A stretch of 64,000 nt of DNA from positions 10,934,601-10,998,600 of the forward strand of contig NC_092677.1 in the NCBI RefSeq assembly GCF_964355755.1, written 5' to 3'. Shown here one piece after another: positions 1 to 27,600 of the stretch. This DNA comes from Antedon mediterranea. Its lineage: Eukaryota; Echinodermata; Crinoidea; Comatulida; Antedonidae. A program made the position numbers and the translations under genes. A model generated the notes under the pieces. It was not told the origin of the DNA, did no database searches, and saw only the letters and a program-made list of their open reading frames with translations. The number at the start of each line of letters is the position of its first letter. Positions within the stretch are counted from its first letter, which is position 1.

Positions 1-3000
1 TATTATGCTATAGTAACCATTTATGTCAAAAAATAAAAGGGTCGAAAATCAGCCAAATTTCGTAAATTTTCCTGTACTATAGTACAGGGATTTTTTCAAG
101 AAATGGCCAATTTTCGACCATTTTATTTTTCGATAAAACTAGTTACTATAGCACAATTGACATGCGCAGAACCCATTATTCGACTCTGCGCATGTTTATT
201 ATACTATAGTAACCATTTATGTCAAAAGTGGTTACTATAGCACAATTGACATGCGCAGAACCCATTATTCGACTCTGCGCATGTTTATTATGCTATAGTA
301 ACCATTTATGTCAAATATTAAAAGGGTCGAAAATCGGGCATTTTTCGTAAATTTTTCTGTACTATAGTACAGGGATTTTTTTCAAGAAATGGCCAATTTT
401 CGACATTTTTATTTTTCGAAAAAACTGGTTACTATAGCACAATTGAAATGCGCAGAACCCATTATTCGACTCTGCCTATGTTTATTATGCTATAGTAACC
501 ATTTATGACAAAAGTGGTTACTATAGCACAATTGACATGCGCAGAACCCATTACTTGACTCTGCGCGTGTTTATTATGCTGTAGTAAACATTTATGTCAA
601 AAAATAAAAGGGTCGAAAATCGACCATTTTTCGTAAATTTTCCTGTACAGGGATTTTTTCAAGAAATGGCCAATTTTCGACCATTTTATTTTTCGATAAA
701 ACTGGTTACTATAGCACAATTGACATGCGCAGAACCCATTATTCGACTCTGCGCATGTTTATTATACTATAGTAACCATTTATGTCAAGAGTGGTTACTA
801 TAGCACAATTGACATGCGCAGAACCCATTATTCGACTCTGCGCATGTTTATTATGCTATAGTAACCATTTATGTCAAAAAATAAAAGGGTCGAAAATCGG
901 CCATTTTTCGTAAATTTTCCTGTACCATAGTACAGGGATTTTTTCGAGAAATGGCCAATTTTCGACATTTTTATTTTTCGAAAAAACTGATTACTATAGC
1001 ACAATTGAAATGCGCAGAACCCATTATTCGACTATGCCCATGTTTATTATGCTATAGTAACCATTTATGTCAAAAGTGGTTACTATAGCACAATTGACAT
1101 GCGCAGAACCCATTATTTGACTCTGCGCGTGTTTATTATGCTATAGTAACCATTTATGTCAAAAAATAAAAGGGTTGAATATCAGCCATTTTTCGTAAAT
1201 TTTCCTTACTATAGTACAGGGATTTTTCAAAAAATGGCCAATTTTCGACCTTTTTATTTTTTGATAAAACTGGTTACTATAGCACAATTGACATGCGCAG
1301 AACCCATTATTTGACTCTGCGCATGTTTATTATGCTATAGTAACCATTTATGTCAAAGGTGGTTACTATAGCACATTTGACATGCGCAGAACCTATTATT
1401 CGACTCTGCGCATGTTTATTATGCTATAGTAACCATTTATGTCAAAAAATAAAAGGGTCGAAAATCGACCATTTTTCGTAAATTTTCCTGTACTATAGTA
1501 CAGAGATTTTTTCAAGAAATGGCCAATTTTCGACCTTTTTATTTTTCGATAAAACTGGTTACTATAGAACAATTGACATGCGCAGAACCCATTATTCGAC
1601 TCTGCGCATGTTTATTATACTATAGTAACCATTTATGTCAAGAGTGGTTACTATAGCAAAATTGACATGCGCAGAACCCATTGTTCGACTCTGCGCATGT
1701 TTATTATGCTATAGTAACCGTTTATGTCAAAAAATAAAAGGGTCGAAAATCGGCCATTTTTCGAAAATTTTCCTGTACTATAGTACAGGGATTTTTTCAA
1801 GAAATGGCCAATTTTCGACCTTTTTATTTTTCGATAAAACTAGTTACTATAGCACAATTGACATGCGCAGAACACATTATTCGACTCTGCGCATGTTTAT
1901 TATACTATAGTAACCATTTATGTCAAAAGTGGTTACTATAGCACAATTGACATGCGCAGAACCCATTATTCGACTCTGCGCATGTTTATTATGCTATAGT
2001 AACCATTTATGTCAAAAAATAAAAGGGTCGAAAATCAGCCATTTTTCGAAAATTTTCCTTACTATAGTACAGGGATTTTTCAAAAAATGGCCAATTTTCG
2101 ACCTTTTTATTTGTTGATAAAACTGGTTACTATAGCACAATTGACATGCGCAGAACCCATTATTTGACTCTGCGCATGTTTATTATGCTATAGTAACCAT
2201 TTATGTCAAAAGTGGTTACTATAGCACAATTGACATGCCCAGAACCCATTATTTGACTCTGCGCGTGTTTATTATTCTATAGTAACCATTTATGTCAAAA
2301 AATAAAAGGGTCGAAAATCGACCATTTTTCGTAAATTTTCCTGTACTATAGTACAGGGATTTTTTCAAGAAATGGCCAATTTTCGACCTTTTTATTTTTC
2401 GTTAAAACTAGTTACTATAGCACAATTAACATGCGCAGAACCCATTATTCCACTCTGCGCATGTTTATTATGCTATAGTAACCATTTATGTCAAAAGTGG
2501 TTACTATAGCACAATTGACATGCGCAGAACCCATCATTCGACTCTGCGCATGTTTATTATGCTATAGTAACCATTTATGTCAAAAAATAAAAGAGTCGAA
2601 AATCGACCATTTTTCGAAAATTTGTTTTTTCAAAAAATGGCCAATTTCTACCTTTTTATTTTTTGATAAAACTGGTTACTATAGCACAATTGACATGCGC
2701 AGAACCCATTATTTGACTCTGCGCATGTTTATTATGCTATAGTAACCATTTATGATAAAACTAGTTACTATAGCACAATTGACATGCGCAGAACCCATTA
2801 TTCGACTCGGCGCATGTTTATTATGCTATAGTAACCATTTATGTCAAAAAATAAAAGGGTCGAAAATCGGCAATTTTTCGTAAATTTTCCTGTACTATAG
2901 TACAGGGATTTTTTCAAGAAATGGCCAATTTTCGACCTTTTTATTTTTCGATAAAACTGGTTACTATAGAACAATTGACATGCGCAGAACCCATTATTCG

Positions 3001-4086
3001 ACTCTGCGCATGTTTATTATGCTATAGTAACCATTTATGTCAAAAAATGAAAGGGTCGAAAATCGGCCATTTTTCGTAAATTTTCCTGTACTATAGTACA
3101 GGGGTTTTTTCCAGAAATGGCCAATTTTCGACCTTTTTATTTTTCGATAAAACTAGTTACTATAGCACAATTGACATGCGCAGAACCCATTATTCGACTC
3201 TGCGCATGTTTATTATACTATAGTAACCATTGATGTCAAAAGTGGTTACTATAGCACAATTGACATGCGCAGAACCCATTATTTGACTCTGCGCATGTTT
3301 ATTATGCTATAGTAACCATTTATGTCAAAAAATAAAAGGGTCGAAAATCAGCCAAATTTCGTAAATTTTCCTGTACTATAGTACAGGGATTTTTTCCAGA
3401 AATGGCCAATTTTCGACCTTTTTATTTTTCGATAAAACTGGTTACTATAGCACAATTAACATGCGCAGAACCCATTATTCGACTCTGCGCATGTTTAGTA
3501 TGCTATTGTAACCATTTATGTCAAAAAATAAAAGGGTCGAAAATCGGCCATTTTTCGTAAATTTTCCTGTACTATAGTACAGGGATTTTTTCAAGAAATG
3601 GCCAATTTTCGACCTTTTTATTTTTCGATAAAACTAGTTACTATAGCACAATTGACATGCGCAGAACACATTATTCGGCTCTGCGCATGTTTATTATACT
3701 ATAGTAACCATTTATGTCAAAAGTGGTTACTATAGCACAATTGACATGCGCAGAACCCATTATTCGACTCTGCGCATGTTTATTATGCTATAGTAACCAT
3801 TTATGTCAAAAAATAAAAGGGTCGAAAATCAGCCATTTTTCGAAAATTTCCCTTAATATAGTACAGGGATTTTTCAAAAAAATGGCAAATTTTCGACCTT
3901 TTTATTTGTTGATAAAACTGGTTACTATAGCACAATTGACATGCGCAGAACCCATTATTTGACTCTGCGCATGTTTATTATGCTATAGTAACCATTTATG
4001 TCAAAAGTGGTTACTATAGAACAATTGACATGCGCAGAACCCATTATTCGACTCTGCGCATGTTTATTATACTATAGTAACCATTT

Positions 4087-5972
4087 ATGTCAAGAGTGGT
4101 TACTATAGCAAAATTGACATGTGCAGAACCCATTATTCGACTCTGCGCATGTTTATTATGCTATAGTAACCGTTTATGTCAAAAAATAAAAGGGTCGAAA
4201 ATCGGCCATTTTTCGAAAATTTTCCTGTACTATAGTACAGGGATTTTTTCAAGAAATGGCCAATTTTCGACCTTTTTATTTTTCGATAAAACTAGTTACT
4301 ATAGCACAATTGACATGCGCAGAACACATTATTCGACTCTGCGCATGTTTATTATACTATAGTAACCATTTATGTCAAAAGTGGTTACTATAGCACAATT
4401 GACATGCGCAGAACCCATTATTCGACTCTGCGCATGTTTATTATGCTATAGTAACCATTTATGTCAAAAAATAAAAGGGTCGAAAATCAGCCATTTTTCG
4501 AAAATTTCCCTTACTATAGTACAGGGATTTTTCAAAAAAATGGCAAATTTTCGACCTTTTTATTTGTTGATAAAACTGGTTACTATAGCACAATTGACAT
4601 GCGCAGAACCCATTATTTGACTCTGCGCATGTTTATTATGCTATAGTAACCATTTATGTCAAAAGTGGTTACTATAGAACAATTGACATGCGCAGAACCC
4701 ATTATTCGACTCTGCGCATGTTTATTATACTATAGTAACCATTTATGTCAAGAGTGGTTACTATAGCAAAATTGACATGTGCAGAACCCATTATTCGACT
4801 CTGCGCATGTTTATTATGCTATAGTAACCGTTTATGTCAAAAAATAAAAGGGTCGAAAATCGGCCATTTTTCGAAAATTTTCCTGTACTATAGTACAGGC
4901 ATTTTTTCAAGAAATGGCCAATTTTCGACCTTTTTATTTTTCGATAAAACTAGTTACTATAGCACAATTGACATGCGCAGAACACATTATTCGACTCTGC
5001 GCATGTTTATTATACTATAGTAACCATTTATGTCAAAAGTGGTTACTATAGCACAATTGACATGCGCAGAACCCATTATTCGACTCTGCGCATGTTTATT
5101 ATGCTATAGTAACCGTTTATGTCAAAAAATAAAAGGGTCGAAAATCGGCCATTTTTCGAAAATTTTCCTGTACTATAGTACAGGGATTTTTTCAAGAAAT
5201 GGCCAATTTTCGACCTTTTTATTTTTCGATAAAACTAGTTACTATAGCACAATTGACATGCGCAGAACACATTATTCGACTCTGCGCATGTTTATTATAC
5301 TATAGTAACCATTTATGTCAAAAGTGGTTACTATAGCACAATTGACATGCGCAGAACCCATTATTCGACTCTGCGCATGTTTATTATGCTATAGTAACCA
5401 TTTATGTCAAAAAATAAAAGGGTCGAAAATCAGCCATTTTTCGAAAATTTCCCTTACTATAGTACAGGGATTTTTCAAAAAAATGGCAAATTTTCGACCT
5501 TTTTATTTGTTGATAAAACTGGTTACTATAGCACAATTGACATGCGCAGAACCCATTATTTGACTCTGCGCATGTTTATTATGCTATAGTAACCATTTAT
5601 GTCAAAAGTGGTTACTATAGAACAATTGACATGCGCAGAACCCATTATTCGACTCTGCGCATGTTTATTATACTATAGTAACCATTTATGTCAAGAGTGG
5701 TTACTATAGCAAAATTGACATGTGCAGAACCCATTATTCGACTCTGCGCATGTTTATTATGCTATAGTAACCGTTTATGTCAAAAAATAAAAGGGTCGAA
5801 AATCGGCCATTTTTCGAAAATTTTCCTGTACTATAGTACAGGCATTTTTTCAAGAAATGGCCAATTTTCGACCTTTTTATTTTTCGATAAAACTAGTTAC
5901 TATAGCACAATTGACATGCGCAGAACACATTATTCGACTCTGCGCATGTTTATTATACTATAGTAACCATTT
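4087..5972. repeat. 943-bp higher-order repeat inside the satellite
   Basis: Units in the order 285, 373, 285, 285, 373, 285 recur with a 943-bp offset: 4372 matches 5315, and 4745 matches 5688. Diagnostic variants travel with the block, such as CAGGCATTTTTTC in place of CAGGGATTTTTTC near 4897 and 5840. This shows recent block duplication rather than independent unit drift. Confidence 0.8.
5030..5314. repeat. Representative 285-bp satellite unit
   Basis: This clean basic unit holds one short-linked and one long-linked palindromic module. The same unit starts at 4087, 4372, 4745, 5315, 5688 and 5973, with spacings of 285 or 373 bp. The 373-bp spacing arises from one additional short-linked module of 88 bp. 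Confidence 0.9.
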
Positions 5973-8900
5973 ATGTCAAAAGTGGTTACTATAGCACAAT
6001 TGACATGCGCAGAACCCATTATTCGACTCTGCGCATGTTTATTATGCTATAGTAACCATTTATGTCAAAAAATAAAAGGGTCGAAAATCAGCCATTTTTC
6101 GAAAATTTCCCTTAATATAGTACAGGGATTTTTCAAAAAATGGCCAATTTTCGACCTTTTTATTTGTTGATAAAACTGGTTACTATAGCACAATTGACAT
6201 GCGCAGAACCCATTATTTGACTCTGCGCATGTTTATTATGCTATAGTAACCATTTATGTCAAAAGTGGTTACTATAGCACAATTGACATGCGCAGAACCC
6301 ATTATTTGACTCTGCGCGTGTTTATTATTCTATAGTAACCATTTATGTCAAAAAAAAAAAGGGTCGAAAATCGACCATTTTTCGTAAATTTTCCTGTACT
6401 ATAGTACAGGGATTTTTTCAAGAAATGGCCAATTTTCGACCTTTTTATTTTTTGATAAAACTGGTTACTATAGCACAATTGACATGCGCAGAACCCATTA
6501 TTTGACTCTGCGCATGTTTATTATGCTATAGTAACCATTTATGATAAAACTAGTTACTATAGCACAATTGACATGCGCAGAACCCATTATTCGACTCGGC
6601 GCATGTTTATTATGCTATAGTAACCATTTATGTCAAAAAATAAAAGGGTCGAAAATCGGCAATTTTTCGTAAATTTTCCTGTACTATAGTACAGGGATTT
6701 TTTCAAGAAATGGCCAATTTTCGACCTTTTTATTTTTCGATAAAACTGGTTACTATAGAACAATTGACATGCGCAGAACCCATTATTCGACTCTGCGCAT
6801 GTTTATTATGCTATAGTAACCATTTATGTCAAAAAATGAAAGGGTCGAAAATCGGCCATTTTTGGTAAATTTTCCTGTACTATAGTACAGGGGTTTTTTC
6901 CAGAAATGGCCAATTTTCGACCTTTTTATTTTTCGATAAAACTAGTTACTATAGCACAATTGACATGCGCAGAACCCATTATTCGACTCTGCGCATGTTT
7001 ATTATACTATAGTAACCATTGATGTCAAAAGTGGTTACTATAGCACAATTGACATGCGCAGAACCCATTATTTGACTCTGCGCATGTTTATTATGCTATA
7101 GTAACCATTTATGTCAAAAAATAAAAGGGTCGAAAATCAGCCAAATTTCGTAAATTTTCCTGTACTATAGTACAGGGATTTTTTCCAGAAATGGCCAATT
7201 TTCGACCTTTTTATTTTTCGATAAAACTGGTTACTATAGCACAATTAACATGCGCAGAACCCATTATTCGACTCTGCGCATGTTTAGTATGCTATTGTAA
7301 CCATTTATGTCAAAAAATAAAAGGGTCGAAAATCGGCCATTTTTCGTAAATTTTCCTGTACTATAGTACAGGGATTTTTTCAAGAAATGGCCAATTTTCG
7401 ACCTTTTTATTTTTCGATAAAACTAGTTACTATAGCACAATTGACATGCGCAGAACACATTATTCGGCTCTGCGCATGTTTATTATACTATAGTAACCAT
7501 TTATGTCAAAAGTGGTTACTATAGCACAATTGACATGCGCAGAACCCATTATTCGACTCTGCGCATGTTTATTATGCTATAGTAACCATTTATGTCAAAA
7601 AATAAAAGGGTCGAAAATCAGCCATTTTTCGAAAATTTCCCTTACTATAGTACAGGGATTTTTCAAAAAATGGCAAATTTTCGACCTTTTTATTTGTTGA
7701 TAAAACTGGTTACTATAGCACAATTGACATGCGCAGAACCCATTATTTGACTCTGCGCATGTTTATTATGCTATAGTAACCATTTATGTCAAAAGTGGTT
7801 ACTATAGAACAATTGACATGCGCAGAACCCATTATTCGACTCTGCGCATGTTTATTATACTATAGTAACCATTTATGTCAAGAGTGGTTACTATAGCAAA
7901 ATTGACATGTGCAGAACCCATTATTCGACTCTGCGCATGTTTATTATGCTATAGTAACCGTTTATGTCAAAAAATAAAAGGGTCGAAAATCGGCCATTTT
8001 TCGAAAATTTTCCTGTACTATAGTACAGGGATTTTTTCAAGAAATGGCCAATTTTCAACCTTTTTATTTTTCGATAAAACTAGTTACTATAGCACAATTG
8101 ACATGCGCAGAACACATTATTCGACTCTGCGCATGTTTATTATACTATAGTAACCATTTATGTCAAAAGTGGTTACTATAGCACAATTGACATGCGCAGA
8201 ACCCATTATTCGACTCTGCGCATGTTTATTATGCTATAGTAACCATTTATGTCAAAAAATAAAAGGGTCGAAAATCAGCCATTTTTCGAAAATTTCCCTT
8301 AATATAGTACAGGGATTTTTCAAAAAATGGCCAATTTTCGACCTTTTTATTTGTTGATAAAACTGGTTACTATAGCACAATTGACATGCGCAGAACCCAT
8401 TATTTGACTCTGCGCATGTTTATTATGCTATAGTAACCATTTATGTCAAAAGTGGTTACTATAGCACAATTGACATGCGCAGAACCCATTATTTGACTCT
8501 GCGCGTGTTTATTATTCTATAGTAACCATTTATGTCAAAAAATAAAAGGGTCGAAAATCGACCATTTTTCGTAAATTTTCCTGTACTATAGTACAGGGAT
8601 TTTTTCAAGAAATGGCCAATTTTCGACCTTTTTATTTTTTGATAAAACTGGTTACTATAGCACAATTGACATGCGCAGAACCCATTATTTGACTCTGCGC
8701 ATGTTTATTATGCTATAGTAACCATTTATGATAAAACTAGTTACTATAGCACAATTGACATGCGCAGAACCCATTATTCGACTCTGCGCATGTTTATTAT
8801 GCTATAGTAACCATTTATGTCAAAAAATAAAAGGGTCGAAAATCAGCCATTTTTCGAAAATTTCCCTTACTATAGTACAGGGATTTTTCAAAAAATGGCC

Positions 8901-11900
8901 AATTTTCGACCTTTTTATTTGTTGATAAAACTGGTTACTATAGCACAATTGACATGCGCAGAACCCATTATTTGACTCTGCGCATGTTTATTATGCTATA
9001 GTAACCATTTATGTCAAAAGTGGTTACTATAGCACAATTGACATGCGCAGAACCCATTATTTGACTCTGCGCGTGTTTATTATTCTATAGTAACCATTTA
9101 TGTCAAAAAATAAAAGGGTCGAAAATCGACCATTTTTTGTAAATTTTCCTGTACTATAGTACAGGGATTTTTTCAAGAAATGGCCAATTTTCGACCTTTT
9201 TATTTTTCGTTAAAACTAGTTACTATAGCACAATTAACATGCGCAGAACCCATTATTCCACTCTGCGCATGTTTATTATGCTATAGTAACCATTTATGTC
9301 AAAAGTGGTTACTATAGCACAATTGACATGCGCAGAACCCATCATTCGACTCTGCGCATGTTTATTATGCTATACAGGGTAGTAACCATTTATGTCAAAA
9401 AATAAAAGGGTCGAAAATCAGCCAAATTTCGTAAATTTTCCTGTACTATAGTACAGGGATTTTTTCCAGAAATGGCCAATTTTCGACCTTTTTATTTTTC
9501 GATAAAACTGGTTACTATAGCACAATTAACATGCGCAGAACCCATTATTCGACTCTGCGCATGTTTAGTATGCTATTGTAACCATTTATGTCAAAAAATA
9601 AAAGGGTCGAAAATCGGCCATTTTTCGTAAATTTTCCTGTACTATAGTACAGGGATTTTTTCAAGAAATGGCCAATTTTCGACCTTTTTATTTTTCGATA
9701 AAACTAGTTACTATAGCACAATTGACATGCGCAGAACACATTATTCGGCTCTGCGCATGTTTATTATACTATAGTAACCATTTATGTCAAAAGTGGTTAC
9801 TATAGCACAATTGCCATGCGCAGAACCCATTATTTGACTCTGCGCATGTTTATTATGCTATAGTAACCATTTATGTCAAAAAATAAAAGGGTCGAAAATC
9901 AGCTATTTTTCGAAAATTTCCCTTAATATAGTACAGGGATTTTTCAAAAAATGGCCAATTTTCGACCTTTTTATTTGTTGATAAAACTGGTTACTATAGC
10001 ACAATTGACATGCGCAGAACCCATTATTTGACTCTGCGCATGTTTATTATGCTATAGTAACCATTTATGTCAAAAGTGGTTACTATAGCACAATTGACAT
10101 GCGCAGAACCCATTATTCGACTCTGCGCGTGTTTATTATGCTATAGTAACCGTTTATGTCAAAAAATAAAAGGGTCGAAAATCGACCATTTTTCGTAAAT
10201 TTTCCTGTACTATAGTACAGGGATTTTTTCAAGAAATGGCCAATTTTCGACCTTTTTATTTTTCGATAAAACTAGTTACTATAGCACAATTGACATGCGC
10301 AGAACACATTATTCGACTCTGCGCATGTTTATTATACTATAGTAACCATTTATGTCAAAAGTGGTTACTATAGCACAATTGACATGCGCAGAACCCATTA
10401 TTCGACTCTGCGCATGTTTATTATGCTATAGTAACCATTTATGTCAAAAAATAAAAGGGTCGAAAATCAGCCATTTTTCGAAAATTTCCCTTACTATAGT
10501 ACAGGGATTTTTCAAAAAATGGCCAATTTTCGACCTTTTTATTTGTTGATAAAACTGGTTACTATAGCACAATTGACATGCGCAGAACCCATTATTTGAC
10601 TCTGCGCATGTTTATTATGCTATAGTAACCATTTATGTCAAAAGTGGTTACTATAGCACAATTGACATGCGCAGAACCCATTATTTGACTCTGCGCGTGT
10701 TTATTATTCTATAGTAACCATTTATGTCAAAAAATAAAAGGGTCGAAAATCGACCATTTTTCGTAAATTTTCCTGTACTATAGTACAGGGATTTTTTCAA
10801 GAAATGGCCAATTTTCGACCTTTTTATTTTTCGTTAAAACTAGTTACTATAGCACAATTAACATGCGCAGAACCCATTATTCCACTCTGCGCATGTTTAT
10901 TATGCTATAGTAACCATTTATGTTAAAAGTGGTTACTATAGCACAATTGACATGCGCAGAACCCATCATTCGACTCTGCGCATGTTTATTATGCTATACA
11001 GGGTAGTAACCATTTATGTCAAAAAATAAAAGGGTCGAAAATCGACCATTTTTCGAAAATTTGTTTTTTCAAAAAATGGCCAATTTCTACCTTTTTATTT
11101 TTTGATAAAACTGGTTACTATAGCACAATTGACATGCGCAGAACCCATTATTTGACTCTGCGCATGTTTATTATGCTATAGTAACCATTTATGATAAAAC
11201 TAGTTACTATAGCACAATTGACATGCGCAGAACCCATTATTCGACTCGGCGCATGTTTATTATGCTATAGTAACCATTTATGTCAAAAAATAAAAGGGTC
11301 GAAAATCAGCCAAATTTCGTAAATTTTTCTGTACTATAGTACAGGGATTTTTTCCAGAAATGGCCAATTTTCGACCTTTTTATTTGTTGATAAAACTGGT
11401 TACTATAGCACAATTGACATGCGCAGAACCCATTATTTGACTCTGCGCATGTTTATTATGCTATAGTAACCATTTATGTCAAAAGTGGTTACTATAGAAC
11501 AATTGACATGCGCAGAACCCATTATTCGACTCTGCGCATGTTTATTATACTATAGTAACCATTTATGTCAAGAGTGGTTACTATAGCAAAATTGACATGC
11601 GCAGAACCCATTATTCGACTCTGCGCATGTTTATTATGCTATAGTAACCGTTTATGTCAAAAAATAAAAGGGTCGAAAATCGGCCATTTTTCGAAAATTT
11701 TCCTGTACTATAGTACAGGGATTTTTTCAAGAAATGGCCAATTTTCGACCTTTTTATTTTTCGATAAAACTAGTTACTATAGCACAATTGACATGCGCAG
11801 AACACATTATTCGACTCTGCGCATGTTTATTATACTATAGTAACCATTTATGTCAAAAGTGGTTACTATAGCACAATTGACATGCGCAGAACCCATTATT

Positions 11901-14900
11901 CGACTCTGCGCATGTTTATTATGCTATAGTAACCATTTATGTCAAAAAATAAAAGGGTCGAAAATCAGCCATTTTTCGAAAATTTCCCTTACTATAGTAC
12001 AGGGATTTTTCAAAAAATGGCCAATTTTCGACCTTTTTATTTGTTGATAAAACTGGTTACTATAGCACAATTGACATGCGCAGAACCCATTATTTGACTC
12101 TGCGCATGTTTATTATGCTATTGTAACCATTTATGTCAAAAGTGGTTACTATAGCACAATTGACATGCGCAGAACCCATTATTTGACTCTGCGCGTGTTT
12201 ATTATTCTATAGTAACCATTTATGTCAAAAAATAAAAGGGTCGAAAATCGACCATTTTTCGTAAATTTTCCTGTACTATAGTACAGGGATTTTTTCAAGA
12301 AATGGCCAATTTTCGACCTTTTTATTTTTCGTTAAAACTAGTTACTATAGCACAATTAACATGCGCAGAACCCATTATTCCACTCTGCGCATGTTTATTA
12401 TGCTATAGTAACCATTTATGTCAAAAGTGGTTACTATAGCACAATTGACATGCGCAGAACCCATCATTCGACTCTGCGCATGTTTATTATGCTATAGTAA
12501 CCATTTATGTCAAAAAATAAAAGGGTCGAAAATCGACCATTTTTCGAAAATTTGTTTTTTCAAAAAATGGCCAATTTCTACCTTTTTATTTTTTGATAAA
12601 ACTGGTTACTATAGCACAATTGACATGCGCAGAACCCATTATTTGACTCTGCGCATGTTTATTATGCTATAGTAACCATTTATGATAAAACTAGTTACTA
12701 TAGCACAATTGACATGCGCAGAACCCATTATTCGACTCGGCGCATGTTTATTATGCTATAGTAACCATTTATGTCAAAAAATAAAAGGGTCGAAAATCGG
12801 CAATTTTTCGTAAAATTTCAAGAAATGGCCAATTTTCGACCTTTTTATTTTTCGATAAAACTGGTTACTATAGAACAATTGACATGCGCAGAACCCATTA
12901 TTCGACTCTGCGCATGTTTATTATGCTATAGTAACCATTTATGTCAAAAAATAAAAGGGTCGAAAATCAGCCAAATTTCGTAAATTTTCCTGTACTATAG
13001 TACAGGGATTTTTTCAAGAAATGGCCAATTTTCGACCTTTTTATTTCTCGATAAAACTAGTTACTATAGCACAATTGACATGCGCAGAACACATTATTCG
13101 ACTCTGCGCATGTTTATTATACTATAGTAACCATTTATGTCAAAAGTGGTTACTATAGCACAATTGACATGCGCAGAACCCATTATTCGACTCTGCGCAT
13201 GTTTATTATGCTATAGTAACCATTTATGTCAAAAAATAAAAGGGTCGAAAATCGACCATTTTTCGAAAATTTCCCTTACTATAGTACAGGGATTTTTCAA
13301 AAAATGGCCAATTTTCGACCTTTTTATTTTTTGATAAAACTGGTTACTATAGCACAATTGACATGTGCAGAACCCATTATTTGACTCTGCGCATGTTTAT
13401 TATGCTATAGTAACCATTTATGTCAAAGGTGGTTACTATAGCACATTTGACATGCGCAGAACCTATTATTTGACTCTGCGCATGTTTATTATGCTATAGT
13501 AACCATTTATGTCAAAAAATAAAAGGATCGAAAATCGGCCATTTTTCGTAAATTTTCCTGTACTATAGTACCGGGATTTTTTCAAGAAATGGCCAATTTT
13601 CGACCTTTTTATTTTTCGATAAAACTAGTTACTATAGCACAATTGACATGCGCAGAACACATTATTCGACTCTGCGGATGTTTATTATACTATAGTAACC
13701 ATTGATGTCAAAAGTGGTTACTATAGCACAATTGACATGCGCAGAACCCATTATTTGACTCTACGCATGTTTATTATGCTATAGTAACCATTTATGTCAA
13801 AAAATAAAAGGGTCGAAAATCAGCCAAATTTCGTAAATTTTCCTGTACTATAGTACAGGGATTTTTTCCAGAAATGGCCAATTTTCGATCTTTTTATTTT
13901 TCGATAAAACTGGTTACTATAGCACAATTAACATGCGCAGAACCCATTATTCGACTCTGCGCATGTTTAGTATGCTATTGTAACCATTTATGTCAAAAAA
14001 TAAAAGGGTCGGAAATCGGCCATTTTTCGTAAATTTTCCTGTACTATAGTACAGGGATTTTTTCAAGAAATGGCCAATTTTCGACCTTTTTATTTCTCGA
14101 TAAAACTAGTTACTATAGCACAATTGACATGCGCAGAACACATTATTCGACTCTGCGCATGTTTATTATACTATAGTAACCATTTATGTCAAAAGTGGTT
14201 ACTATAGCACAATTGACATGCGCAGAACCCATTATTCGACTCTGCGGATGTTTATTATGCTATAGTAACCATTTATGTCAAAAAATAAAAGGGTCGAAAA
14301 TCGACCATTTTTCGAAAATTTCCCTTACTATAGTACAGGGATTTTTCAAAAAATGGCCAATTTTCGACCTTTTTATTTTTTGATAAAACTGGTTACTATA
14401 GCACAATTGACATGTGCAGAACCCATTATTTGACTCTGCGCATGTTTATTATGCTATAGTAACCATTTATGTCAAAGGTGGTTACTATAGCACATTTGAC
14501 ATGCGCAGAACCTATTATTTGACTCTGCGCATGTTTATTATGCTATAGTAACCATTTATGTCAAAAAATAAAAGGATCGAAAATCGGCCATTTTTCGTAA
14601 ATTTTCCTGTACTATAGTACCGGGATTTTTTCAAGAAATGGCCAATTTTCGACCTTTTTATTTTTCGATAAAACTAGTTACTATAGCACAATTGACATGC
14701 GCAGAACACATTATTCGACTCTGCGGATGTTTATTATACTATAGTAACCATTTATGTCAAAAGTGGTTACTATAGCACAATTGACATGCGCAGAACCCAT
14801 TATTTGACTCTGCGCATGTTTATTATGCTATAGTAACCATTTATGTCAAAAAATAAAAGGGTTGAAAATCAGCCATTTTTCGAAAATTTCCCTTACTATA

Positions 14901-15459
14901 GTACAGGAATTTTTTCAGGAAATGGAAAATTTTCGATCTTTTTATTTTTCGATAAAACTGGTTACTATAGCACAATTGACATGCGCAGAACCCATTATTC
15001 GACTCTGCGCATGTTTATTATGCTATAGTAACCATTTATGTCAAAAAATGAAAGGGTCGAAAATCGGCCATTTTTCGTAAATTTTCCTGTACTATAGTAC
15101 AGGGATTTTTTCAAGAAATGGCCAATTTTCGACCTTTTTATTTTTCGATAAAACTAGTTACTATAGCACAATTGACATGCGCAGAACCCATTATTCGACT
15201 CTGCGCATGTTTATTATACTATAGTAACCATTTATGTCAAAAGTGGTTACTATAGCACAATTGACATGCGCAGAACTCATTATTTGACTCTGCGCATGTT
15301 TATTAAGCTATAGTAACCATTTATGTCAAAAAATAAAAGGGTCGAAAATCGGGCATTTTTCGTAAATTTTCCTGTACTATAGTACAGGGATTTTTTCAAG
15401 AAATGGCCAATTTTCAACCTTTTATTTTTCGATAAAACTGGTTACTATAGCACAATTAT

Positions 15460-15682
15460 ACCAAATTTTGGATTTAAAAACAACATATAGAGGTGACATG
15501 CGCAGGAGTATATAGTAATACTGTGGGCTAGTGTTACCAGACAGTTCTGAAAATTTTACTTCGTTTTGATTTAGGTTTTTTTTTCTATCTTTATTGAGAT
15601 CCAGCCACTGGTATCAACAGCATTGTTTCAGTAATTTGCCTTTTGGATAGGCCTATTATACGCATAAAAAAACATGGCGGCC
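15460..15682. other. Satellite edge and DHRS1 3' flank
   Basis: This stretch lies between the satellite edge and the DHRS1 stop codon. It contains a stray ACATGCGCAG satellite fragment near 15496 and the DHRS1 polyadenylation signal. No other gene is seen. Confidence 0.7.
15590..15595 (-). promoter_or_regulatory. Polyadenylation signal of DHRS1
   Basis: AATAAA on the minus strand, 88 bases after the DHRS1 stop codon and before the satellite begins. Confidence 0.6.
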
Positions 15683-18600
15683 TCAAGGTCCTATTGCATT
15701 TGCTATTAATAATGACTTTGGAGCCATGACAAAACGTGGAATCCATTTAGCCAGTCGCCATTTTCCTATGTAGAGCATATTTGCCCGAAGACTTAATGGA
15801 TGCAGAGGTTTAATTCCATGGACATCAGTGAACTTAAACGTATCCGCTATATCTACAGTTGTATAAATTTCGCCGGTTTTATCCATGATATTTTGATCTA
15901 TATAAAGAGACAGTTAAATATCGTTTATAATTTGTTTGGTTAGATAATAACAATTATCATGTTTTTATTATTAATAACATGAACTTACACATAAACATGA
16001 ACTTATTCACAAATATCAAACATAAAATTAGACTCCCCGGCGTACTCAACGAATATTTGAGGAGTACTCAACTAATTTGAGGCGTACTCAACGAATATTT
16101 TGATAAACTTTCAATATCGAAGTGAGCCCTACTATTCCTATTGTATAAATCCCTTCATATTTAATTTACTAAAAACATTAATAATTTGTCTTATTTTAAG
16201 CAATATTGTTTGTAGTAATAATTCATTAATAAGAGGGTGAACATAAACATCGACAAAAATAATAAAGTGTCGATGCTTGGCTATACAATACACAGCCTTG
16301 TAATTTTGCCAAAAACTAGTTGAATTTTGACAATTTCGATAATTCTTTTTTAACACGAAATTATTATATACGAGTAACCTGAAAACTGTATCCAAATGAT
16401 TACTAAATACAATGAATATAATAGATTATTTCAAAAATATAAAAGTTTTACCTGTTACCAGATTCAGCACTGCTTTAGCTACGAACTGAGGAGTCTCACC
16501 TTGAGAAAGAGCCATTTCTTCCTGATAATAAGGACGTTGCAGTATTATAATAGGGAGGTTTCGCAACCTTACGAATACGATAACGAAAACGGATACGTCA
16601 CACATTTGTGAAACTTTTGATCCCCATTTCATATTCGTAAAGCGTATTCGTGTTGACGAATATCACCAGTCATATTCGTAACTACAAAACGAGTATAGGT
16701 TTTTATCTATTTTGCATTTGAATCAGGAATGATTCATGACTATAATATAATTATACCTTTATTGAAAGTAATTTACTAAAGTAATTTACTAAAATGCTAG
16801 GCCAATTTTGATATAGCCGTTTGCTGTTGGTGTTTCTACATCAGCTGGAGGTTTTACTACATTAGCGGTGGATTGTTCTACATTAACGGTTGTTTCGACA
16901 TTAGTTAGCGTTTTCTACATTAGCGGTTGTAACACGCCGCGCAAAGATAAATTGCATTTTAATATTATTGCGCATACATGTTAGAGAGTGAATTGTGGAA
17001 CGTGTGTTAGGTAAAACAACTTTTTAGATTTAAGCCACTGAAATGAAATATTTATTTTCAACCTAAAAGATGAATTTGAAAGCCAAGATTGAAATATTTA
17101 AAGTAAAGTTAAAGTAAACGTACTTCAAAGTTAAGTTTGTTTTGATTTACACACTCAAGAAGGAACTCGGTCTTGACTAAGCCAGGCAAAAGCGACAACA
17201 CAGCCACACCGTATTCTTTAAGTTCTCGTGAACAATCTTCTGTCATTCTATCGCACTGAAAATTAGATTAGTAAATTATCATAGAACAAACCAGACTACA
17301 GAGATATTAAACTATTGAATTTTATTTACAGCATGCGTAGGTCTTGTTGAGAAAAATTGAAGTTGAATAAAATTATAATGCCCGGTTTAAATACCAACAA
17401 CAGTTTATATCGAAATAAAAAAAATACGATTTTGTCATTTAGTGCCCTCCATACCTATCATAATAATTTGTACGACATACGGAAAAAACGATATACCTAC
17501 TGCCGCTTTATTGATTCCATATGCTGTGTTAAACAGTGCTTTGAATCCGGACATCGACGATACATTTATAATGACGCCTCTTCTTGCTGGAACCATCAAA
17601 GAAGCGGCTCGTCTCGAAGCTATATAGTAAGACCTTAACACAGAAAGGAATACTTAAGTGTAGGTGTGTGAATGCAGGTAATGTCTGTTGAATTTCAATG
17701 GTTCGTTAAGGGTTAGTTCACACTAGAAGCATTAAATTCGTGTCTAATTTTAGTATTTGTAGTCTTACGAGAATTCTAAAGTTCTATAAAAATCATACCT
17801 CATTCCTGCTTGACTGGCCATATCCCATAATTCCAATGAAGCTTGCCAAAATGGCTCATTTCGTTTTTCTTTCAAAACCTAATTGCAACATAGAATGATA
17901 CTTTATTCAGCATGCATTTTGCAAAATCAGTCGAAGAAAATGCGGATATGGAAACAAATTTCCTTCAAATCTCCTACGACAGATCCTTTAATTCCTTCTT
18001 CTAAGGCTTGGTTGCCAATAGCGACGGAACGTAACGCAACCGACGCAACGTAAGAAAATGCCATTCCGATAATTCTGTTTGCCCCCGCCTGCGTGAAATC
18101 AAATCTGCGATATTTGCAGCATTGTTGCGTCGTCGGTTTCCATTTGTGATTACGCAATACAGCACTTTGCGTCAATACGTCACTGCGTTGCGTTGCTAGT
18201 GGGAACCACGCTTCACAATTAATGACCTGTTGTATGGTTGCAGTAACTTTATATTGTACTACTTGCATTAAATATCTATGATATGGTCCCCAATAGGACG
18301 CAACGTAAGCGAGTATATAATAATAATCCATCGCTTGTGATTGGTCAAATTACTTGCATTTCATCCTAGTATTGTAAAATTCAACTACTGAAAGTTGTAA
18401 TAAAAGTATTTTATACTATAAGTTTTAGTGGGGAAACCAAGCTTTAACAACACTCAAGAAACATTACTACTTCAGTAACCACCGCAGTAAAAAATGATAA
18501 TGAATCTTACTGGTTCTCCAGAAAAGGCACAGTTGACAAGCACGTCCAGTTGACAGTACTTCTCGTCTCTTACTCTGTCAAACAGATGTTCCATATCATC

Positions 18601-21600
18601 AACCGAGGTGTGATCACATTCTACCGGTATGCATATTCCACCAGCAGCTTCGGCCTACAAAATGTTTTATTTCAGTCCAATGTATTTCAAAAATGCAAAC
18701 ATATTGAAGTGGAATTTGTTCAAGAATAACAATAATTAACGATTTTTTTATAAATTATAATAAAGGAAGTACTGTATAGATACTAAAATAAAATGATCCT
18801 AAAAATAAAAAACAAAGGAAACGAAAGAAGAAGCAAACTAAAACCATACAATTGATAGGTCTAATCGAAAAAAGTTTATTGATATTTCAAAGTAATTTAA
18901 ACAGAGCTGTATCGACACTACACTATAGAAAGCTATGTAATATTTTGATTATGGTTTTATCGACTCAATCTAAAAAATTTACTTTGTAAATTACAAAAAA
19001 TCGACAGTTTAGTGGTCCAGTCGAGTCACTTATACACACACAGTATAAACTAATTTCGTTCTGGACCAGTCGTTTTAATTCACTTGCCCAAGTTAAGACG
19101 ATTATTCAACCTGAAAGTTGTTTAAACCGCGTAAGCTTGCCTACTCATGATTCAACCAGAACAATTACTACACTTCCCTATATTAGAATATCGTAAATAC
19201 TGTTATAATTGTCAGTTGTTGATATTTGGTTCAAAGCGAGAAAGTAATTTTGATGGTCTGTTAAACACGTTTGCGTTACATCTTTCTAATTTCCGTGTGC
19301 GTTTCTTTACTCGACGAAAACACGCCGCTTTCTTTTCTACGGACGTATAGCGGTATTTTCGTAAGCAGTTTTCCATTTCATTTGTTTTAATGAAACAACA
19401 ACAACCGTCCGGGGAAACGTATAGTTTATTTCGTCTAGAAATCTCACCGTGTACCTGTATGACTTCAATCAACGTATCATCGTTGTGATAAACGTGCACT
19501 TCTTGTTCTCTTAATAAAACTAGAGTCTGATTTTTAGAATCGACAGTTACGGCGATCGGGTGCTGCTCACCAAAATCACCGAAACGTTTTATATCTAGGC
19601 AGCTATCTTTCATGTTTACTCTGAAAACAACTTTTGAGTCAGTATCACAAACGTACATAAACCCTTTCTCAGAAAAACATACATCCGACGGCCATTGTAG
19701 TGCTTCAGGAAGCGATAACCTCCTGTTTTCACCGCCGGTAACCGGATCCATAACATACACGCACTTGCTTTCTGTGTCGCTTACCAGTAACTCGTTTGTA
19801 ATTTTGTTGACGCATAATGCACTGGGAGACGCAATGCTCGTTACTCTGACGGAATACAACATCTTGTGCGTTTGTACGTCATAAACTTCTAAAACTTTCT
19901 TCAAAACGAATAAGACATAAAGTTTTAAATCTACGCTTGTTATTAATGAAACGTCTCTTGTTTGTACTTGAATATTTGAATGAAATCTTCCGGCTGCATC
20001 CAAGAGGACGACACGGTTATTTTGGGCGGTGTCGGCAACGATAATGCGGCCATCTTCTGTCACACATATATCGGATACTTTACCGAAGAACTCCGAGGAA
20101 GGTCCACCATCAAACTGCAAGTGGTCGCTGACGTCAACAGTTATTGACGAATATCTAAATGAAGCATTATTGACTTTAATATCCAAAGTGTGACAACCAA
20201 TAGTTGTAGGAAAGAATGATATAGTCCAGGAATTTCCGGTGAATGATACGTCACAAACTTGAGAGAAGCCATCGGGACTTTTGATGTTAGCGGAGAATGT
20301 TGGGATGTAATCCAGTTGTTTCTGAATGAATCCACAGCAATCCAGTGCGTAAACCATGACATCACACGTTCCGTCAACAAGGGCACCTCTAACATCAACC
20401 ATCAAACTCCCAACTTTGCATTCCAATACGAATTCTTTGAGCTTTCTCTCCGAAATGAATATTTTAAAAATACCATTAGATTCTGGAAAGAATGTTGCCA
20501 TTAGAGAACTTTTATTGTCAACAGACGTCAACTCAAATGGCATATTTACGTCTTCTGGTGAAGCTATCCTTATGGAAGTTTTAACTCCTGGAGTTTTTCC
20601 AAACTTCACAACATTCTCCACATATGCAAATGAGGTGCGCATTGCGCACTCTTTAACTGGAACCTTAAAATGTTTCACCTTTTCTTCTTCTTGATCTGAT
20701 ATAACTAATGTATACGGATCTAAGCTGCGAGGTGTAAATGTTACACTAGCTGCCATTTCGTGAAACTTACAAGTGCTAACTACTACATTCGTTTCGTCTG
20801 AATGAACACGAATGTCAAATTTTTTCAGATCCAAAGATTTGGTTCCAACAACTTCAAATTTAACTTGCGATTCTTTACCAAAGTAGGCATGTGAGGAAAT
20901 TAATATTACATCATAGCAATCGACATGACCCTGTAACGTGTGTGTCGTGTCTGAAAGGCGCGTGTATGGTACGCGTACTTTTATGGTATGTTCTCCAACG
21001 TTTAGCGGCAAGAAACAAATTGTGTACGTACCATTATGGTTATCAATAATTTTACATTTGTGCGATTCAGTGGTAGGTGTATGTACCTCGGCAGTGAATT
21101 TTATGCCGCCAAACTTACAAACATTTCTATCACGATCGAACGTCTTCAACTGAAGTTTACAAAGTTTACCAACAACCGCAGCCGTGCAGCCCTTTAATTC
21201 TGTCAGCGACGGAACAAATGAACAAAAGTTAATACTGCCAGCGATATTATTAACTTCATTAGTAAAGTCATCAAAACATTCTGAGTTCCAATTTATAATG
21301 TAATCTGTTGTTACAAATGGGCTACGTGAGCGTGATTGAGAACGTACCAATTGTTGATGGGTAGTCATTGTTTGTTTCTTAGTCGTTTCGTATTCGTCAT
21401 CAATAACATTGTGTATCTTTAAACGCGTTTTACTGACTTCGTCGCGTAAAGATTCCTTTCTTTTTTGTAAAACATCTATCAATTTATTAAATCGACCATT
21501 TATCATTTTTAAGGTTTCTTCACATTGATTGTTAACTTCATCTTTTTTCTTCTCTATTTTATAATATAAATCTTCTTTTGAAGTTTCCGAATTGCTATCA

Positions 21601-24600
21601 ATTTGGCGTATTTCTAGTTTCTTGTACGGTTTTTGTTCCTGACCTCCGACGTCACTTTCACCTGGAGGTGCTTCCAAGTGACCATTTGTTAACTGTTCAA
21701 CGTATTCGTCATCAGCAAAAGTTTCTTCACTTTGTTGGTTAACTTCATTTTTTTTATTCTGTATTTTGTGATGTACATCTTCTTTTGAAGTTTCCGAATT
21801 GCTATCAATTCGTCGTATTTCTAGTTTCTTGTGCGGTTTTTGTTTCAGACCTCCGACGTCACTTTCATCAGAAGGCGCTTTCACGGGGTCATTCGTTAAC
21901 TTTTTTTCAACATTTTTTTCACATTGTCGATTAACTCCATCTTTTTGCTTCTGTATCTTAAGATGTACATCTTCTTTCGAAGTTGCCGAAAAGCTATCAA
22001 ACCGCCGTATATCTAGTTTCTTGTACGGTTTTTGTTTCAGAGCTCTGACGTCACTTTCATCAGAAGGTGCTTTCATGTGACCACTATTCTGTTTAATGAA
22101 TTCGTCATTGGCAAAATTGTACAATGTGACATTATGACCAGAAGTATGACACTCCTTACACGATGAACATATCTTTTTGATGCAAGTGTCGCACCAGGCG
22201 ATGGCGTGGTTGTCGTGGCAGATGTTACATTTATTTATCCTGGGGTATTCAACTTGCCCAGGCTGGCTCTTTTGCGATGTGTTTACGCGATACATGATCA
22301 AATGTGCAACACACAACGCCTAAGCCCAAAACATCAGTAACTACTTGCCGGTAATAGCCTAGCTTTGGACATCATTTGTTGGCTTCTTATGTTGAGTAGA
22401 CATTCCGTATGTTATAAAGTACGGTGCAGTAAGACTAATGGTACAGTAAGTAGTAGTCCACGGGTTTCATTAAATGAATCCACGTTACAAAAAAATGTTA
22501 TGAAATAATGCTGTCGATATATAAAACTGTCCGAATTGGTAAGCTTACACCATAACGAAACACGAATGTTCTACTAGTGTTTTAGAATGGGCGAGACAAA
22601 TAATACACAATAGTTTGGACTATGAACTCAGATGATAAATGAACAACGTGTGAGGATGTTTGTCTTACGATAATAAAGCTTATACAATTAAACATTTAGG
22701 TTAAAACCCATTAATTCAAGATTACATTTTCTACCATAAAATATGTTATTTAAGAAAAAAAAAACATTTTTATTTTATTAAATATATTTTAAAACAAACA
22801 CAATTAAAAGTATTCGATATATTTACCAACAACAGAATAATGCCTAGACAGTTTGTGTCTAAAGCACTATAGCCTTCGCTATACAGATATGTTATTATTG
22901 ACGTAAATAGCTGTTTCACTCAAGAAAAATAGTTATTGTCATTGTTTATTTAATATAATTGTTATAATAGCACATCAATTTCAGATACACTGTACTGTAC
23001 ACTGTAATTGTGCATTTTAAATATTCAGTTGGTACAAACGTCCCAAGTTAGTTTGCAGCAACACTGCCTCATTTTATTATTATTTTATTATTAAAAATGG
23101 GGAAAACAATAATGTAATAATAACAACTTAGGTTACAGTATTAAACATGTTCTTCGCACACAACAACTCTATACCACTTTCGGTTGGTGGCTGAGTGCTA
23201 TTGCAATGTACAGTGTCAAACTATAATGTTTTGTCAATGTTTACATTAACTCTCTATTCTTCATTGTGGAGTAGACTCAAATCTAAACAACTTCGTGATT
23301 TTTTATCCTGGCCAGGAAACTGAAAAGGAAGACAGAGTAGAAGGCGACTCAATGAATCCGGACTTGAACTTGCACTTCTTGAGCTAACCACTAGTGACCC
23401 ATTTGAAGAGAACCGGCGCCCTCTTGGTCGACCACTTGTACGATGCGACGTCCTAATTTCTAGCGTTGATTTCTCAATCGAGCCATAATGATACTTCCTC
23501 AAACAATTCTCTTTCTCGTTGTTTTTGATAAAGTATCCATCTGGCATTAACTGCATCTTGCTTCTTCTGGATAGGGAACCTCTAGTTTTCAAAATTCCCA
23601 AAAGCTTGCAATCATTCCCGTAAAGACACATTTGCTGAGTGCGCAATAAAACCAGCAATCGGTTATCGTCATCTATAGCAACGGCGACCGGGTCTTTCAA
23701 CACATCCTCGCTTCCAACATTCTTGTTAACTTTAGCACCTCGTTTATTCATCACGAAAACTGTACCGGCATCCGTGTCGCAAACGTATAAGATACCCTTC
23801 TTATCAACGCACACGTCAGACGGCCATTTTAGAGGTGCGTCAAGAGGTGTGATACGATAATCTTCTTTAAAATTCTCTGGATCAATGACGAAAATACATT
23901 TCTTCTCAGTGTCACTAATTAGCAAGGTATTGTCGTACCTATCCAAGATCAGCGCACTAGGTGCGCCAATTCCATCCATGGACGTAGAAAATAAGCATTT
24001 ATGGGTCTGGATATCGTAAACTTCCATTATCTTCTTTATTATGCATAACACGTATATTTTAGTTCCAGAGTAGTTAATGGCAATTAATGAAACATCTCTT
24101 GTTTTTACTGGAATTGAAGAATGAAATCTAGAGTCAGGGTCCAATATCACAATGCGATTACTTTCAACTGTGTCTGCAATGTACGTGTCTCCGTCAACTG
24201 AAGTGCATATATCAGAAGCGATGCCGAAAAACTCCGAAGACGAACCTCCAAAGATCTCCACATGCTTATTGACTTCAATTTGTATTGGGGATTCTCTGAA
24301 GACAACGCCGTCGAGGAATAACATCATATGGTAGAAGCCGATTGACTTGGGAATGTACGAGATCTGCCAAGATCCGGTTTGCAATAAAATGTCACAGTTG
24401 ACAGTACATCCATCCAAATTTGACAGTTGAGCGGTTAGTTGAACATCTTCAATGGCGTCATTAAGTGGAAACCCTGAACAATCACAAGCATTAACGATAA
24501 CAGTACAGGTTCCGTTTACGACAGCACCTTTGACATCAACAAGCAATGAACCTACGTGAATGTTCGTACACAAAGCTAAATCATCGTCATCCTTGACTTG

Positions 24601-27600
24601 CAATTTCAAAATTCCTTTAGCTTCTGGAATGAATTTGTACGTCTGAATACCAATATCACCTCCCATATAAACAATCGGTACATCTTGTCCATCAACTGTT
24701 TCCATCTCTACTTTCATGTCAGCAATGTTTACATGTTCAAAAGTTATAGAACTTTCCAGGTTTGCGAAGATATGCTTATAAAGCATTGTTCCAATTGGTA
24801 GCCTGTAGCTGCCAATGACGTCACCGGTTGAAGACCGGATTAACAGTGTATGAGTGTCTTTGGAAAGTGGTACGAAGGATAACGATAGTGAATTCTGTTG
24901 TAGAGTACATTGTGTATCGAGAACAACGCCAGACGGTGACAGAATACATCCAGATAGTGATGAAAGTTCTGAAGAAGTATTGGTGTCATCTAAACGGAAC
25001 GATACCTGTGACTGGACATTGGCAAACGCTGGATGCGATGTAACAAGAATCCGAACGACATTAACTTCAACTTCCATACAATGCTGAGACTCCTCTCCAA
25101 CGCACATTGACACGGTGTATGCCCCGGCATGACATGGTAGAAAACGAACTTCATACGTGCCATCGTTGTTGTCAATGACGTCACAGTGTAATGCTCGTTC
25201 CTGTACATTACTGAACACACAAGCGCTGAATGTCATTCCGCCGAGTACGCAGTGAGTTCCATTAGGACTGAATGTGATCACCTTTAAACGGTAATTATAA
25301 CCAATACCACCAATGCCGTGTTCAACCTTGGTCTTATGCGGTGCCATGGATACCATCTTCAAGACTGCTGTCTGATCTACCTCTTCCATAATATCTTCCA
25401 TTTTGGCAGAGTTCCAAAGAAAAAAATAATCAGACGATAACAAATTTAAATCTGATTGAACGTTACACTCTGAATTCATTTGAGAATGCTCATTACTTTT
25501 GTTCATCCAGTTCTTTTCAATTAATTCGTACTCTTGTCTGATATCTTTTTCCAATTTAGTCTGATGTGTCACTACCTCTTGTAAAAGACACTCACGTCGT
25601 TCTCGTAATGTCGCTTGAAATTTTATAAAGAATTTGTTGATTTCATGAATAGTATCGTTAGCTTTTGTCGATATAATTTTGCATAGAGCTTCCATATGTT
25701 GCATTGATTGCACAACAGTGACATATTTTTCAGAAGATGATATTCTTGATACACGTTTTTTAAACATGTCTACCTCCTCTAACATGTCGACCTCTGACAT
25801 GTCGTCCTCTGACATGTCGTCCTCTGACATGTCGTCCTCTGACATGGTTACTTCTAACACGTCATCCTCCGAATTGACAAGGTCTAGTCCAGTTGAAACG
25901 TCATTCAATGTTTTTAGTTGTACATTGTCACTTACGTTATTGTCATCACCCTTTTTCTTATGAAAACGGGCACAAGCTTTATTTCTTGCGGCATATTCTT
26001 CTTCTGCCGTAGCACCAAACGTTGGTCTACGTGACGTCAAAGTGTCTGGTTGTTTCTTCCCTCTACGATTTACTTTACTGATGAAGGCGCCTCGTTTTCT
26101 TGGGTTATCTGTTCGGTAGACATCGGGTACAACATCGTTGTCGTTATTGTTATCAACATGGCTTCCCTGTTGCAGTTGAACTTCAGTCCGAGCATGATTT
26201 CTTGCGAGATATTCCTTTTCTGCCGTAGCACCAAATGTTGGTCGACGTGACGTCAAAGAAAGGGGAGGTTCATGCTTTGATGCATTACCAGAGTTCTTTA
26301 TCTTAGTAACTATTCCACGTTTACGATACATCCTTGAGAGTATTACTGTTCAGTACAAACTTAGACCTACTCGTATATTGTGGAATGATAGGCTACCGAC
26401 ATCGACACACTACGCTTTCCTTAACTCTACACAATCGCGGCACTTAGTAGGCTATACCATAAATAGTTTGACAGAAGTGTATGCCTATTGTCTATTAAAA
26501 GGTGGCAATACAGATCATCCGGTATCCTGCTTACCGGAAGGTCTTCACCTCGGGTAGGAAACGTATCAAATATTACGAAGTGTCAATGCCTGGCACTGGC
26601 CGCATGACATCATCATTTCCACGCGTGGTTTCTTTTATAGTCACTGTCATCTGATTTCTATCACATACGCCAAATTTAAATAATATGGCTATTATCTTTA
26701 TCTGATTTAATTTAAGAAATATTTGAACCGTAACAATGAAATAAGCTGATGGGGCAAGAACCCATATGACACCATACGATACCATATGACGCCTACGATA
26801 TCATAAAGCTCGGTTCAAAAAGCCTTTGTGGCATAAACGCGATGGATGTATCACTTAATATCAGTTTCATATAAATATTTTGGGTATTTTTTGTTAACTG
26901 TCCGGTTATTTCCCCGATCACTATTTAGAAATAGATTTATCACCAATGACTTGCAGAATTAATTACATAAGCAGGATATTCTAAAATATGGGACCTTAGA
27001 ATGCACAGCATTATGGAAATACGGAAAGATTAATCCCCGAATATAGCCGGTACATTCAAACTTACTTATTTTGTGATGATATATGTATATTTATGCTTGT
27101 TTAACCTAAATATGTTAATTTGTATATATAAATATTTGTACTACAAATGGAGAGAGGCATTATATACCAATAGATATTTGGTCCTCTCTCCTTCATCTTT
27201 TTTTTTTGTAATGTATTATACCATATGGACAATTGTCTGAAATAAAAAAGTTGAATTGAAAAATATTCGTTATGCCCAGGGGCGTCTAAATAATCGTTAT
27301 GCCCAGGGGAGTCTAATAAACGTTATATAGCCAGGGGCGCATAAACAATAGTCACGCCCAGGGGCGCCTAAATAATCGTTATGCCCAGGTATTAAGCGGT
27401 GGATCTCTCAGAGAATTTCATAAAGGGCTAGGGCCAACCTTATTAAGCTTACCTCTCTTACTGTGTTTTGGAGACATGGTACTAGAGTTTCATTTCCACC
27501 TTCAACTTTTAATGGACCTAGAATCAAACATATATACATGATATTAAAATCTAACCACATATTGTGAGCCGCAATGATTATACGATATCTTGAAGTGTTC

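Follow-up and report, generated by a model that had tools for sequence, protein, structure and literature searches.

A palindromic satellite of Antedon mediterranea that probably spreads as cargo of a non-autonomous cut-and-paste DNA transposon

MITEs, foldback elements and Helentrons that carry satellites have been published (PMC12628747, PMC9659126, PMC4079207, PMC7492417), and the comparisons below hold for the accessible parts of those papers. For miDNA4, a MITE found in Xenopus tropicalis, Scalvenzi and Pollet proposed that a pre-existing tandem repeat was captured via microhomology; like the element described here, miDNA4 is non-autonomous, has terminal inverted repeats (TIRs) and contains a satellite array of variable length, and the loss of element ends from its longer arrays counts as a further likeness (PMC12628747, PMC9659126). 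It differs in having an assigned superfamily, Tc1/mariner, and the accessible parts of its descriptions make no mention of a palindromic cargo or of a target in the cargo's linker (PMC12628747, PMC9659126). Tetris and the TIR-220 satellite of Drosophila virilis also resemble the present case, in that a DNA transposon supplies tandem repeats that expand into free arrays, and element-borne and end-less arrays both exist there as they do here. However, the repeats of Tetris form part of its long inverted arms, and it makes duplications of 8-10 bp (PMC4079207), whereas here the array occupies the middle of an element with TIRs of ~30 bp and the duplication is likely 4 bp. The Cg_HINE Helentrons of the Pacific oyster are likewise non-autonomous, carry central tandem repeats, are dispersed through the genome and are in some cases inserted in other repeats, but they use TT sites in T-rich regions with no duplication, in contrast to the TIRs, palindromic target and likely 4-bp duplication found here (PMC7492417). 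Among the matches listed from the open-access literature, no DNA transposon combined a palindromic satellite cargo with a target in that cargo's linker. Unusual in the present case are a cargo made up of palindromes and the preference of its element for the palindromic middle of the cargo's linker. The satellite probably spreads as cargo of this non-autonomous cut-and-paste transposon. Satellite jumps between chromosomes are an old question; in this one genome array-free, array-carrying and end-less stages coexist, which, with the sharp target preference, makes the order of events (landing in satellite, picking it up, spreading it and losing the ends) testable by comparison of junctions.

The stretch that we studied is C8:10934601-10998600 on the forward strand (64,000 nucleotides, hereafter the window), and the genome searched comprised 354 Mb in 18 contigs. 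Repeat detection and unit alignment delimited a tandem array at window positions 1..15457 on the + strand, in which both modules and linkers are palindromic. Its module M (76 bp, TGGTTACTATAGCACAATTGACATGCGCAGAACCCATTATTCGACTCTGCGCATGTTTATTATGCTATAGTAACCA; for example 14959..15034, +) has an outer stem of 14 bp, inner stems of 3 bp and 12 bp and a loop of 14 bases, and precedes either a 13-bp spacer (for example 15231..15243, +, with a module on each side) or a linker of ~120 bp (for example 15035..15154, +), which is a long imperfect palindrome centred on CCTGTACTATAGTACAGG. The array holds 107 module starts. Of its units, 52 measure 89 bp and 54 are longer, in most cases 194-196 bp, and the short and long units alternate along most of the array. 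Every alignment match in it, 109 to M and 56 to the linker, lies on the + strand. Mean unit identity is 95-96% over 15.4 kb, the mark of a long homogenised tandem array and hence of satellite DNA. Duplications within the array, which reach 2.9 kb at 97% identity, suggest that unequal exchange took place repeatedly. The array that a sequence-only reading had placed at 1-15459 is thus real, but its last base is 15457 and its left start falls outside the window: the full array occupies C8:10933503-10950057 (~16.6 kb) and begins ~1.1 kb beyond the window edge. At its left edge it passes, at linker sequence, into degenerate material of the type II repeat described below; at its right edge it breaks 19 bp into a module (M positions 1-19, at 15439..15457, +) and gives way to non-satellite DNA without a transposon end.

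The same reading had described a tandem satellite of fold-back modules and linkers, and this was borne out, since both palindromes outscored all 1000 dinucleotide shuffles: self-complementarity was 46 for M against 11.2 +/- 2.8 in shuffles and 74 for the linker against 16.1 +/- 3.6, with 0/1000 shuffles as high in either case. The individual arms it had named are also present, namely the 11-bp arms ACATGCGCAGA/TCTGCGCATGT around a 14-base loop (81 exact occurrences), the 12-bp outer arms GGTTACTATAGC/GCTATAGTAACC (54 exact occurrences) and the 18-bp linker palindrome (30 exact occurrences, 45 with <=2 mismatches). Modules and linkers justify the description as palindromic, but spacers and loops do not, so that 'entirely' was slightly strong. 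Folded as single-stranded DNA, one M reached z = -11.2 and one linker z = -6.6, and one 285-nt stretch folded as RNA reached z = -19.0, with 0/200 shuffles as stable in each case. These values describe computed folding potential; cruciform extrusion, and long hairpin RNA feeding small-RNA pathways, both of which had been proposed, would be possible consequences. The array was also considered as a known RNA gene and rejected, because in a permissive comparison of 14000-16000 with Rfam 129 of 129 matches, mostly to miRNA-type hairpins, fell below the gathering scores.

The satellite is widely dispersed. With <=3 mismatches the two half-modules occur 3399 and 3652 times genome-wide (reversed control, 0), and the exact 18-bp linker centre, which is the empty insertion site discussed below, occurs 1194 times. 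The matches listed include arrays of ~1 to 9 kb, distributed over nine contigs; the best listed ones to 600 bp of the window array are 93% identical and likewise dispersed on nine contigs, and the query's own place is not among them. A related repeat, type II, has the linker in common with the window satellite (type I) and a different module; its search gave at least 361 matches with the best 40 of 1513 candidates scored. A third kind of array occurs at L023, and linker homology is common to type I, II and III arrays. While the window array has a single orientation, M occurs in both orientations within arrays L021, L028 and L035. Two further arrangements were seen: at L016 and L017 (C4:4657815-4663910) a satellite array is bordered on both sides by another repeat of ~10 bp (GGAACTACTC-like), and at L027 (C1:1617500-1621200) the modules of a variant array alternate with a short inverted linker piece.

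At other loci of the genome, arrays whose M consensus is the same are enclosed by the left and right ends of a single element family. A unique 112-bp sequence terminating in ...CAGTTGAGTCGTTCTTTCATGACGGGGCAG stands at the array edge of several loci, and an inverted copy of its last ~30 bp lies across the array, where it opens a unique left end of ~0.5 kb. The carrier is thus a separate non-autonomous TIR element, with inverted repeats of ~30 bp starting from CTGCC, a left end of ~0.5 kb and a right end of 112 bp. A 32-bp inverted-repeat pattern with <=3 mismatches matched the genome 49 times, against 0 for the reversed control. Searches with the right and left ends, each with at most the best 40 candidates scored, gave at least 46 and at least 45 matches, respectively, some of the former covering the inverted repeat only and maybe being left ends. 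The clear case is L044 (4597 bp), which consists of a left end, 4 kb of array and a right end; L042 (941 bp), L050 (3365 bp) and L049 (5165 bp) also have both ends with an M/linker array inside, so that the element-borne array is variable in length and the total element ranges from 0.9 to 5.2 kb. L077, which is without a left inverted repeat, was left out of the both-end copies. Array-free copies were found as well: L051 (1328 bp) has both ends and a visible interior, L043, whose interior is likewise visible, has a right end without the outermost bases, and L052, which also shows the interior, is more diverged. Compared with these copies, the array stands in place of ~0.5-0.65 kb of element interior. 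At the common left junction (e.g. L049, L050, L054, L056 and L042) ~655 bp is missing relative to L051, and at a second one (L053, L055) ~480 bp. The right junction, TTATTATGCTA/ATCAAAATAAT, interrupts M at one common position in 13 of 14 readable array-bearing loci, L039 being the one that differs. Inverted repeats of this type also delimit a 204-bp element seen at 11 loci (L064-L074), in one of them enlarged to 910 bp.

These element ends bear directly on what is mobile. An earlier suggestion was that a foldback-type or MITE-like transposon, amplified in tandem, makes up the palindromic unit itself, and M does have good terminal inverted arms, the linker is a long inverted repeat, and both orientations of M occur within the arrays named above. 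Against this, the same spacer or linker sequence adjoins M at its boundaries, and the mobile ends are other sequences that lie outside the array. The isolated copies of M with target duplications that such an origin had led one to expect were not seen among the C1 clusters examined. The 100 listed exact M-half matches, all on C1, form 17 clusters, of which 14 were examined; nine of these have at least one element end, and in the other five no element end was found in the flanks looked at (0.3-0.9 kb; those at 4.41 and 18.76 Mb partly). Two of the 100 matches are singletons, at 7.30 and 34.88 Mb, and both belong to degenerate arrays (L031 and L018). Foldback elements have long arms of tandem repeats, whereas the both-end copies here have a central array, short TIRs and a unique left end. 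A link between transposon and satellite and the wide dispersal therefore stand from the earlier proposal, but the palindromic unit as itself a foldback transposon does not, and we regard that explanation as quite unlikely.

The ends of the carrier element lie by preference in the middle of the linker palindrome, mostly within the related type II repeat. The outer flanks of the element mostly end in CCTGTACTATA, which is half of the linker palindrome. The 48 printed ends comprise 45 distinct ends from 37 insertions, since five rows represent just two ends, those of the 204-bp relative. Of the 45, 42 are among the 49 inverted-repeat matches, and the remaining seven of the 49 are outside the count. 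CCTGTACTATA was found within 2 mismatches at 27 of the 45 ends, or at 30 of 45 with interrupted variants, and 26 of the 37 insertions are in the palindromic target. With the same tolerance this 11-mer occurs in the non-satellite part of the window (17001-64000) at 0.04% of positions, and inside three type II arrays at 0.4-0.5%. The flanks of the 45 ends are type II in 30 cases and possibly type I in one. Four further ends, which did not fit the CCTGTACTATA pattern and are outside the 45 (L029, L045, L075 and L087), are also at linker-palindrome sites of this kind. L048, L051, L052, L078, L039 and the 204-bp relative lie outside satellite palindromes, and L018, L046, L061, L062 and L080 are in satellite yet off the pattern. 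When the flanks of L042 were joined with a 4-bp overlap, CCTGTACTATAGTACAGG was restored, and TATA stands on both sides in all four palindrome copies printed, the length of a duplication being ambiguous within a perfect palindrome. Outside palindromes, a plausible 4-bp repeat (AAAA) was found at L051 alone, with none at L048, L052 or the 204-bp relative. From these junction sequences a 4-bp target duplication (TATA) is favoured as the probable footprint of the carrier element. The 204-bp relative was rejected as a source of target duplications because one flank is common to its 11 loci (one base differs), and its near-identical flanks indicate that it is probably one insertion amplified inside another repeat.

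Since most element ends have type II flanks, one could also propose that the linkers of pre-existing type II arrays recombine or undergo gene conversion with one another and so spread the arrays, with the element ends as passengers. The linker homology common to type I, II and III arrays agrees with such a process, as does the position of the borders between free and type II arrays, which fall at linkers. Loci were compared inside the element and 20-130 bp beyond its ends. Median identity between loci was 95.2% inside and 76.4% outside for the right ends (n=8), and 94.9% inside and 78.1% outside for the left ends (n=14), with single pairs of outer flanks reaching 86.9% and 91.5%. This drop at the element ends, from ~95% to 76-78%, favours transposition over joint duplication of element and flank and speaks against conversion, and the ends are moreover precise, whereas conversion tracts would stop at varied places. 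Spread by conversion, with passenger ends, is in our judgement unlikely, and transposition of an array-bearing element is the reading that we follow below.

Among the copies examined for coding capacity (L044, L048 and L049), none was recognised as autonomous or as encoding a transposase. The longest stop-to-stop frames of L044 and L049 are 145 aa and 119 aa, respectively. The 8.5-kb L048 was considered as an autonomous copy and rejected, because both of its ends are in pieces and the five of its seven listed ORFs that were scanned against Pfam gave no match. The array-free interior, used as a query, returned 13 matches, of which four exceeded 500 bp, including the query's own place. As to superfamily, Tc1/mariner elements follow a TA duplication rule, but a TA-only duplication is disfavoured here because its empty site, CCTGTACTATATAGTACAGG, is rare, with 26 occurrences against 1194 for the 18-mer CCTGTACTATAGTACAGG. 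In the copies off the palindrome, the bases before CTGCC vary. Helentron and HINE elements have no TIRs, whereas the carrier has TIRs and a palindromic TATA target.

How the window array relates to these elements is a separate matter. Neither edge of the window array has an element end, and none was found in the 8.1 kb of sequence to its left. Its right flank was considered as an element end and rejected, since it matched no other array edge, just a dispersed repeat of ~95 bp; this repeat, at window 15554-15648 to the right of the array, has at least 40 other matches in the genome at 72-85% identity. The M consensus of the window shows 0/76 differences from L019/L041 (one locus), L038 (right end), L044 and L050 (both ends), but it is also identical in the end-less arrays L021 and L034, and as M is short and its consensus is common to end-less arrays, the identity gives no direction. 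The window linker differs from those of other loci at 2-17 of ~121 positions, and the window units form their own local subfamily in spacer and core bases. These subfamily variants, the missing element ends, the internal duplications and the length of the array, the longest among those seen, would all suit an ordinary local satellite of which the element separately captured a copy. We hold this to be possible though rather unlikely, in view of the M consensus shared with element-borne arrays and of the 93% identity of the best listed 600-bp matches dispersed on nine contigs. Since no element end adjoins the window array, we infer rather than observe its origin inside an element, and regard it as a freed or truncated descendant of an element-borne array. 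More generally, the simplest reading of the end-less arrays is that they would be descendants that have lost their ends, for example via linker recombination.

Spread as transposon cargo would then run as follows. A transposase encoded elsewhere would move the carrier element. In an ancestral copy, satellite would have taken the place of ~0.5-0.65 kb of interior. Gap repair that was interrupted and had the satellite DNA around the insertion as template is a possible route, and it would fit the different left junctions. Unequal exchange would alter array length, and recombination between the linkers of cargo and flanking arrays would remove the element ends, leaving free arrays like that of the window. 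Because the cargo holds many copies of the preferred target palindrome, each cargo-bearing insertion would add landing sites. A self-provisioning partnership, in which the cargo palindromes serve as new landing sites and interrupted repair in satellites reloads elements, is nevertheless doubtful: at most one of the 45 ends is in a cargo-type (type I) array, which speaks against it. The palindromic target also raises the question of whether the transposase reads a sequence or the shape of an extruded hairpin.

Beyond the array, the window contains a few other features. On its minus strand, two adjacent open frames at 19212-22319 and 23254-26349 (1035 and 1031 aa) match Filamin and NHL domains, the first with an additional weak B-box match, and we take both to be TRIM-like. 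A 261-aa open frame at 44233-45018, also on the minus strand, matches the CTLH domain and is, we presume, possibly an exon of a RanBP9/10-like gene. At 49953-50669 lies a 57-bp minisatellite (12.7 copies, 95% match), partly under an open frame of 171 aa.
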